A DNA stretch of 63,859 nt from Deltaproteobacteria bacterium (GTDB lineage: Bacteria > Desulfobacterota > Syntrophia > Syntrophales > UBA2192), in NCBI GenBank assembly GCA_012728915.1, contig JAAYEC010000071.1:1-63859 (forward strand). Reading direction: 5' to 3'. The notes below the pieces were generated by a model that was given only the letters and a program-made list of their open reading frames with translations, had not been told where the DNA came from and ran no database searches. The first letter of the stretch is position 1. Each line of letters opens with the position of its first letter. Below, piece by piece: positions 34,154 to 35,228 of the stretch. Made by a program: the position numbers and the translations under genes.

Positions 34154-34587
34154 TTCACCCGCATCCACCGGGTGGACGCAGGGTTCGACGAGAGGGGCTT
34201 CACCGACGCCTGTATGGACGCGTTGTTTCGGGTCCAGGCGGCCTGGCGAATCTCGACTTGTCTCCGGTCCGAAACATCCTGACCGACGAGATGTACGAGG
34301 TTCTTTCGGAAGACACCCGGAAGCTGAGAACGGAAAGAAAGATCAACCGGCTGGACAACATCGCCGTTCGCTCCGCCGACATCACGGAGGCCTGGCAGGA
34401 GTCGGGCCAGGATTCCATCACTGTCAGATTCCTCGCCAGCCTGCTGGACTGCACGATCGACGAATCGACCGGGCAGGTCGTCTCCGGACGCAGGACGGAA
34501 CCCGTCAAGTTCGAGGAGTACTGGACCGTCGCCCGTCTCGGCGGGGAAAACGCCTGGCGGCTCTCGGCCATTCAGCAGCCGCAGTGA
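34154..34587 (+). pseudogene. Frameshifted remnant of a Tim44-domain protein
   Basis: From 34154 one frame reads FTRIHRVDAGFDERGF and DACMDALFRVQAAW. At about 34250 the next frame takes over with LDLSPVRNILTDEMYEVLSED and continues through VRFLASLLDCTIDESTG and VKFEEYWTVARLGG to the TGA. Together these match the bacterial Tim44-like domain (DxxFD...F.R.Q.AW...DL..VR..LT..MY). The N-terminal signal and membrane segments are missing. One frameshift and a lost 5' end imply a pseudogene, unless the C-terminal part starting at 34258 is still translated. Confidence 0.65.
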
Positions 34588-34680: not shown

Positions 34681-35082
34681 TCAGTGCGTCTGCTTGATGT
34701 TGGCCCGGGCCCAGTCGATGAGTTCCTGGATAGTCGTGCCCAAGGGGAAGAAGCGGACGATGCCGACCTCCTTCAGCTTCGGGATGTCCTCGTAGCTGAG
34801 GAAGCCGCCCGCCGTCACGCCGATGTCCCGGGCGCCGGCCCTGTCGAGGAGGTGCATGACTTTCCGGATGTCGTCGATCTGTGCGCCGGGGAGCGTCGTG
34901 ATCCCGATGTGATCCACGTCTTCCTGGATAGCCGAGGTCACGATGGCTTCCGGCGTCTGCGTTTCCGTGTAGATGATCTCGAAGCCCGACTCCCGGAAGG
35001 CCAGGGCGAGTTTCAGCACGGAGTTTTCGTACCCCTCGCCGAACTTGGCCATGAGGATCCTGACCCTTTTTTCGTCCTGCAT
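34681..35082 (-). CDS. Cobalamin-binding-domain-like protein lacking the cobalamin histidine
   Basis: A 133-residue Rossmann-like protein resembling the small B12 domain of methylmalonyl-CoA mutase: RILMAKFGEGYENSVLKLAL, then TPEAIVTSAIQEDVDHIGIT, TLPGAQIDDIRKVMHLL and FFPLGTTIQELIDW. The DxHxxG motif that supplies the cobalt-ligand histidine is replaced by EGYENS (Glu, Tyr and Ser at the three positions), so base-off/His-on binding is not possible. It may bind B12 differently, bind another ligand or be a structural partner. A consensus promoter lies 118 bases upstream. No mutase gene is adjacent. Confidence 0.8.
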   Translation of the reverse strand: MQDEKRVRILMAKFGEGYENSVLKLALAFRESGFEIIYTETQTPEAIVTSAIQEDVDHIGITTLPGAQIDDIRKVMHLLDRAGARDIGVTAGGFLSYEDIPKLKEVGIVRFFPLGTTIQELIDWARANIKQTH

Positions 35083-35199
35083 CCGTCCTCTCCTGTCCGC
35101 TCGTTCCTGTGCCGTTGTTCCGGGGCCGGCTCGCGTTTCCCGGCGGTTGCCCGCGGGGAACGGCCGCTGACGCAGCGCCTTGACGGGACGTCGTGGCTT

Positions 35200-35228
35200 T
35201 TTATAGAAAACCGCCCGTGGGGTGTCAA
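35200..35228 (-). promoter_or_regulatory. Consensus sigma-70 promoter of the B12-fold gene
   Basis: On the minus strand, TTGACA (35228-35223, perfect) and TATAAA (35205-35200) are 17 bases apart. This is one of the best promoters in the window. It should give a leader of about 110 bases. Confidence 0.7.

Follow-up and report, generated by a model that had tools for sequence, protein, structure and literature searches.

The gene at 34681..35082 on the reverse strand of the window (the whole stretch of 63,859 nucleotides that was analysed) belongs to a clade of stand-alone B12-binding domains that are related to the small domain of acyl-CoA mutases, lack the cobalt-ligand motif DxHxxG, have, in the genomes examined, no mutase large subunit of their own and are under purifying selection. 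What might such a domain hold when its ligand motif is gone? The most likely answer, put forward tentatively from the sequence comparisons, is that it holds a cobamide, or a compound with a cobamide-like tail, without coordination by histidine, and serves independently of mutases as a carrier, buffer or sensor partner. The family is a variant of a known domain, and its sequences suggest that this domain has taken on another job. The range 34681-35228 singled out in an earlier note on this DNA comprises the gene plus its promoter, with the following parts, all on the reverse strand:

34681..35082 (stop codon included), reverse: gene for a stand-alone MCM-type B12-binding domain of 133 amino acids (open reading frame and profile matches)
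34735..34749, reverse: F112-P-x-G-T116, in which F112 corresponds by position arithmetic to Phe722 of human MMUT (structural alignment)
34804..34809, reverse: G92-G93, counterpart of the GG element (alignment columns)
34891..34899, reverse: T62-T63-L64, counterpart of the S-x-L element (alignment columns)
34909..34911, reverse: codon of His58 (family compared with DGHDRG rows)
35020..35037, reverse: E16-G17-Y18-E19-N20-S21, counterpart of DGHDRG, with Y18 at the cobalt-ligand site (alignment)
35087..35094, reverse: possible Shine-Dalgarno stretch AGGAGAGG (read from the sequence)
35200..35228, reverse: sigma-70-type promoter TTGACA-17-TATAAA (exact match, kept in all six genus copies)

Domain identity and predicted fold

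Profile search recognizes in the 133-residue protein a B12-binding domain only, with no fused radical-SAM domain (Pfam PF02310, E 3e-11, 43.6 bits against a cut-off of 32.1). The NCBIfam model TIGR00640 (acid_CoA_mut_C) also matches it, at 92.8 bits against a cut-off of 57.45, and because this score exceeds the cut-off for the mutase domain, members of the family are likely to be annotated as parts of a B12-dependent mutase, an annotation that both their motif and the missing partner contradict. The AlphaFold2 model (mean pLDDT 91) has five strands and five helices in a Rossmann-type cobalamin fold; it may lean towards canonical domains, because these make up 27 of the 41 rows of its input alignment. 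Among solved chains, Foldseek and structural alignment place 2yxb closest (Z 20.5, rmsd 1.7 Å over 130 aligned residues, 37% identity), followed by 4r3u_C, the small subunit of 2-hydroxyisobutyryl-CoA mutase (Z 20.1); identity to both chains is 36-37%. The predicted five-stranded domain, with this pLDDT and the Z-score to 2yxb, is consistent with the view of the earlier note that the rest of the fold is intact. The target thus resembles the TIGR00640 mutase small domain, as seen in 2yxb and 4r3u_C, in fold, length, GG and S/T-x-L element, but differs from it in lacking DxHxxG, in a loop that is one residue shorter, in a His58 found only in the family and in having no mutase partner that could be found.

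Loss of the motif across a clade

In the alignment DGHDRG falls on E16-S21, bearing out that DxHxxG has become EGYENS in the target, with one residue deleted just ahead of it relative to the canonical loop. Three loci match in the same genome: the target, a stand-alone DGHDRG domain with 40% identity to it, and a DGHDRG domain fused to a mutase. The alignment of relatives and named genomes has 112 rows, with certain genomes occurring twice; DGHDRG is present in 83 of these rows, and the remaining 29 make up the family of the target. The canonical rows used here and below are a sample, drawn from the matches listed in a pattern-driven scan and from relatives. In a tree with 21 canonical domains the family forms one clade with a support of 100/100.

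With the order, class and phylum searches added, the roster, drawn from Syntrophales and their relatives within Desulfobacterota, stands at 42 distinct genes. This count leaves out second reads of genomes already counted (L033, L034, L037, L041, L035, L036, L146, L147, L170 and L177) and two canonical loci (L179 and L181); it includes a split copy in genome G050 (L019), which is absent from the tree and from the columns of the 31-row alignment. Not one of the 42 genes has the full DxHxxG motif, so that its loss is a trait of the family. At the cobalt-ligand site (site 18), 24 genes have Tyr, 12 have His and 6 have Phe. None of the 42 keeps the final Gly of the motif (+3), which gives way to Ala in 36, Ser in 4 and Thr in 2, and site 16, that of the Asp partner, varies among E, D, R, Q, A and T. 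At least eight changes among His, Tyr and Phe are needed at site 18 on the 31-row tree. Since this site is always one of the three and has switched repeatedly, what is kept is an aromatic ring and not a metal ligand; imidazole is tolerated there, though not needed. Because close orthologues differ naturally at this site, they lend themselves to a direct test of what the cobalt ligand does.

The earlier note had proposed that homologues with His at this site would mark the change as a lone mutation. In part such homologues do exist, because 12 of the 42 carry His, two of them (L007 and L008) in the genus of the target; the alignment nevertheless reveals a loss of the motif throughout the clade, and not a lone mutation.

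Distribution and genomic neighbourhood

The class search, which covered 155 genomes with the same reach as the order search, found 24 with a member at E <= 1e-38, plus the split G050 copy. In the phylum search (an even draw of 395 genomes, with at most 10 candidates scored in each) 14 passed, or 13 without the canonical G203. Holders span nine family-level groups (f1, f9, f15, f16, f18, f53, f69, f90 and f109), to which the split copy adds a tenth, f17. Named holders among the matches listed are Syntrophaceae, Syntrophobacteraceae, Desulfobacteraceae, Desulfosoma and Desulfacinum MAGs, the top-scoring named record among them being Syntrophaceae bacterium UBA5744 (Syntrophales). No family copy was seen in G002, a seventh genome of the target's genus that is 86% complete. 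The split copy itself (G050:C68:3377-3749) lies in two matches near a contig end and may reflect a frameshift, an assembly error or a pseudogene.

Among 18 holders searched for CobS, 14 have a match; the other four, the window's own genome included, showed none. That genome (G000) is listed as 100% complete and the same-genus G005 does have a CobS match, which raises the possibility of cobamide auxotrophy in the former, a member of a genus that uses B12.

Within the window, the neighbours of the target encode Tim44-like, CBM48, ABC permease, MgtE-type transporter and Nramp transporter proteins. The Tim44-like open reading frame, directly downstream at 34258-34587 and convergent with the target, is short, and its match is confined to the latter portion of the Pfam profile. 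At other loci the neighbours include RtcB, two-component systems, RmlD, an AMP-binding enzyme, dephospho-CoA kinase, RuvB and cysteinyl-tRNA synthetase, among others. None of the 30 neighbours scanned was named as a cobamide-synthesis family; one (at L186) is a MobA-like NTP transferase, a broad class. When open reading frames from 21 loci were clustered, those recurring in at least three family-level groups were the family itself, open reading frames that overlap it or other genes, two-component regulators and three adjoining genes, the last confined to four loci (L042, L044, L186 and L189). Pfam names two of these three, RtcB (L042) and archease (L186), both in the opposite orientation to the family gene. 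A conserved operon partner was accordingly rejected: none recurs across family-level groups, RtcB and archease being limited to those four loci and antiparallel. The family gene stands alone.

A pocket partly kept and partly rebuilt

The S-x-L and GG elements surround the lower ligand in base-off/His-on cobalamin domains. Their counterparts, T62-x-L64 and G92-G93, are present in all 31 family rows, with the Ser of S-x-L replaced by Thr, which also bears a hydroxyl. Examples of positions conserved in more than 90% of both the 31 family and the 82 canonical rows are G15, G17, G33, E35, E54, D57 and G60 and, likewise, L64, G66, G92, G93, G107, F112 and G115. By position arithmetic from the structural alignment, F112, F29 and L121 correspond to Phe722, Phe638 and Ala731 of human MMUT; site 29 is Phe in 26 of 35 rows. 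These three MMUT residues are discussed around the lower ligand in PMC6759758.

Other positions set the family apart. His58 occurs in 42/42 family genes against 0/82 readable DGHDRG rows (one of the 83 being unread at this site), where the residue is instead A (24), L (23), V (13), C (12), M (4), G (4) or I (2). Residues I59, I61, T62, P65, A91, F94, F111 and P113 are specific to the family at more than 85% of the 31 rows, and six of them (I61, P65, A91, F94, F111 and P113) are nearly invariant. Given up, on the other hand, are canonical residues that include the His, Arg and Gly of the motif, the Pro of site 96 and the His of site 68 in the loop after strand 3, which is present in 82/82 canonical rows and variable in the family. 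Compared with canonical domains, the loops of the ligand face have undergone two one-residue deletions as well as changes of GAH to GAx and of TPG to PxG. GGG has mostly become AGG in the family, and AGG is also seen in 9/82 canonical rows.

Which ligand would fit such a pocket?

The favoured reading, that of a His-free cobamide holder, would run as follows. The retained lower-ligand pocket may take up a cobamide or a compound that bears a similar nucleotide tail; the ligand would be held base-off and without coordination by His, and an aromatic ring (Tyr, His or Phe) would occupy the old ligand position. The role would then lie outside mutases: the protein would be abundant and carry or buffer cobamides, or it would act as a sensor and bind to a partner protein. 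The loss of the cofactor, as claimed in the earlier note, is not borne out, given that the lower-ligand elements are kept and that His-less domains which bind cobalamin are known, as reported in PMC13331322: Arg lies below the corrin in TsrM and QueG and Trp in TokK, and cobalamin domains that lack a His ligand have precedents in TsrM, TokK and OxsB. With the cobalamin-dependent radical-SAM enzymes, in which another residue may sit under the cobalt (PMC13331322), the target shares the Rossmann-type fold without a His ligand; their domain, however, is fused to a radical-SAM domain and that of the target stands alone, and it is the post-strand-3 loop that supplies the residue beneath the cobalt in OxsB and TsrM. 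The small B12-type co-regulators LAerR and SAerR act outside mutases, as would be the case for the target, but a helical cap and a His ligand (PMC9144470) set them apart from it, since the target consists of the five-strand domain alone. Conservation of the pocket is no proof of cobamide binding, because the kept residues may be structural in the fold; and the altered ligand-face loops, the four of 18 holders in which CobS was not found, the lack of a cobamide-synthesis neighbour among those scanned and seven large-subunit pieces with no B12 domain nearby were all counted against this reading.

Could the pocket instead now serve a ligand that is not a cobamide, such as another tetrapyrrole, CoA or a nucleotide? 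By analogy with the SCHIC domain of AppA this is possible, though on balance unlikely. It would explain why the ligand-face loops were altered together and why His58, in 42/42, is accompanied by I59, I61, T62, P65, A91, F94, F111 and P113, and it has a precedent in AppA, whose SCHIC domain has a B12-type fold in which the ligand has changed to heme (PMC9144470). Yet the elements of the lower-ligand pocket are retained, and the SCHIC post-strand-3 loop of eight residues, which goes with a shifted His heme ligand (PMC9144470), has no counterpart here: five residues, the canonical length, separate strand 58-63 from helix 69-81, with no insertion relative to the 82 canonical rows. Nor does the target's family have a fixed His at the ligand site, and Phe at site 18 in 6/42 disfavours a general metal ligand there.

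What is the significance of either ligand? If a cobamide is bound without His, syntrophs and sulfate reducers would have in this family a further carrier, buffer or sensor with which to handle cobamides; if another ligand is bound, the family would represent another change of cofactor in a B12-type fold, after the heme-holding SCHIC domain. In the literature surveyed, a partial collection consisting mostly of titles and abstract openings, no description of a His-less mutase-type small domain was found. It is conceivable, though rather doubtful, that we are dealing with an undescribed family of free-standing mutase-type B12 domains in which cobalt coordination has given way to a new chemistry, with an interchangeable aromatic residue (Y/H/F) in the pocket and an invariant His58, and that it uses a different cofactor or reads a cobamide-pool signal in syntrophic and sulfate-reducing bacteria.

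Mutases in the same genomes

A large subunit was present in 22/22 genome handles (some of which are the same genome twice), in 11/11 holders and in 15/16 holders; none was seen in the remaining holder, G040, which is 80% complete. Pairing was examined in twelve further genomes, all with a completeness of 90% or more and 11 with a family member, and TIGR00640-type matches outside the family were counted as partner domains. Each of the 30 large subunits has such a domain no more than 800 bp away, and 0/12 family genes adjoin a large subunit; 29 of the 30 partner domains score well above the cut-off and one, in G268, is partial and below it. In the single-contig G524 all three large subunits are paired, the nearest pair being 1.4 Mb from the family gene. 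Across 16 holders, 35 of 42 large-subunit pieces (PF01642) have a non-family B12 domain within 300 bp, none has the family gene there, and 0/16 family genes adjoin a large subunit; 15 of the contigs that bear the family gene carry no large subunit and that of G005 carries one 370 kb away. Pairing is incomplete in G001, G021, G050 and G051, because seven pieces in these genomes, several of them split or short, have no B12 domain close by. In the genomes examined, the family is thus no missing mutase subunit and has no large subunit of its own. In G017, G033 and G021, genomes of about 2 Mb, the acyl-CoA mutases are greatly expanded, with 11 to 15 large-subunit matches each, some of them pieces.

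These counts bear on two further explanations. It is improbable that the protein binds no ligand and acts as a protein-binding adaptor, or mimics the mutase small subunit as a decoy, docking, for example, on the large subunit or the G-protein chaperone. The idea draws on the presence of mutases in nearly all holders and on a related domain complexed with the chaperone MeaB (8dpb) among the structural matches; it is weakened by G040, as far as a genome of that completeness can tell, by ligand-pocket positions that remain conserved and by the variability of site 68. Less probable still, and strongly disfavoured, is that the protein serves as the usual small subunit of a two-subunit acyl-CoA mutase whose large subunit is encoded at another locus. 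The TIGR00640 score, the 4r3u_C fold and the seven large-subunit pieces that lack a nearby B12 domain would fit it, but it was rejected in view of the pairing of 30/30 large subunits (the three of G524 included) with domains of their own outside the family and of the 0/12 family genes adjoining one. In the window's genome, moreover, both large subunits (2/2) already have another B12 domain, and the cobalt ligand is not conserved in the family. A decaying paralogue or lone mutation is scarcely credible: although His is found in 12/42 relatives and the G050 copy is split into two matches, dN/dS values of 0.06-0.20 (15 pairs among the six genus copies), on which decay was rejected, indicate purifying selection on the family, which is one clade across at least nine family-level groups with many invariant columns.

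A promoter of the genus

The promoter named in the earlier note is confirmed as an exact TTGACA-17-TATAAA at 35228..35200 on the reverse strand, the TATAAA matching the TATAAT consensus in 5/6 positions; its end lies 117 bp from the start codon. The pattern TTGACA-N16-18-TATAA occurs once in the window and in none of 100 shuffles; the 2.79 Mb genome has 14 occurrences, as opposed to one for a reversed-pattern control; of the 13 other genomic occurrences, eight were examined and two of these loci have a tRNA. The promoter is kept in 6/6 genus copies, the target included, with 11/12 matches and at 45 to 167 bp from the start.

Is it a trait of the whole family? When 25 upstream regions were compared with 300 Markov resamples each, the six genus copies were reached by 0 or 1 resample, L009 by 8, L011 by 12 and the remaining 17 by at least 31. 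A strong promoter across the family was therefore rejected, most upstreams outside the genus being no better than resampled sequence, and the promoter is best regarded as a trait of the target's genus. A known RNA leader was likewise discarded, the only match upstream being to mir-1178 (E 0.14, far below the cut-off).

The codon adaptation index of the target, 0.765, is second among 20 hand-chosen open reading frames of the window, when calculated from four reference genes of one locus that themselves range from 0.70 to 0.75; the B12 domain of the genome's own mutase reaches 0.833 and the canonical paralogue 0.697. Together, promoter and codon use make high expression of the target plausible, as the earlier note had anticipated. 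The six copies from the genus, finally, share the N-terminal sequence MQDEK, and the upstream region of L006 / L034 contains about 120 bases more than that of L005, from the same genus, between the conserved promoter and the start codon.
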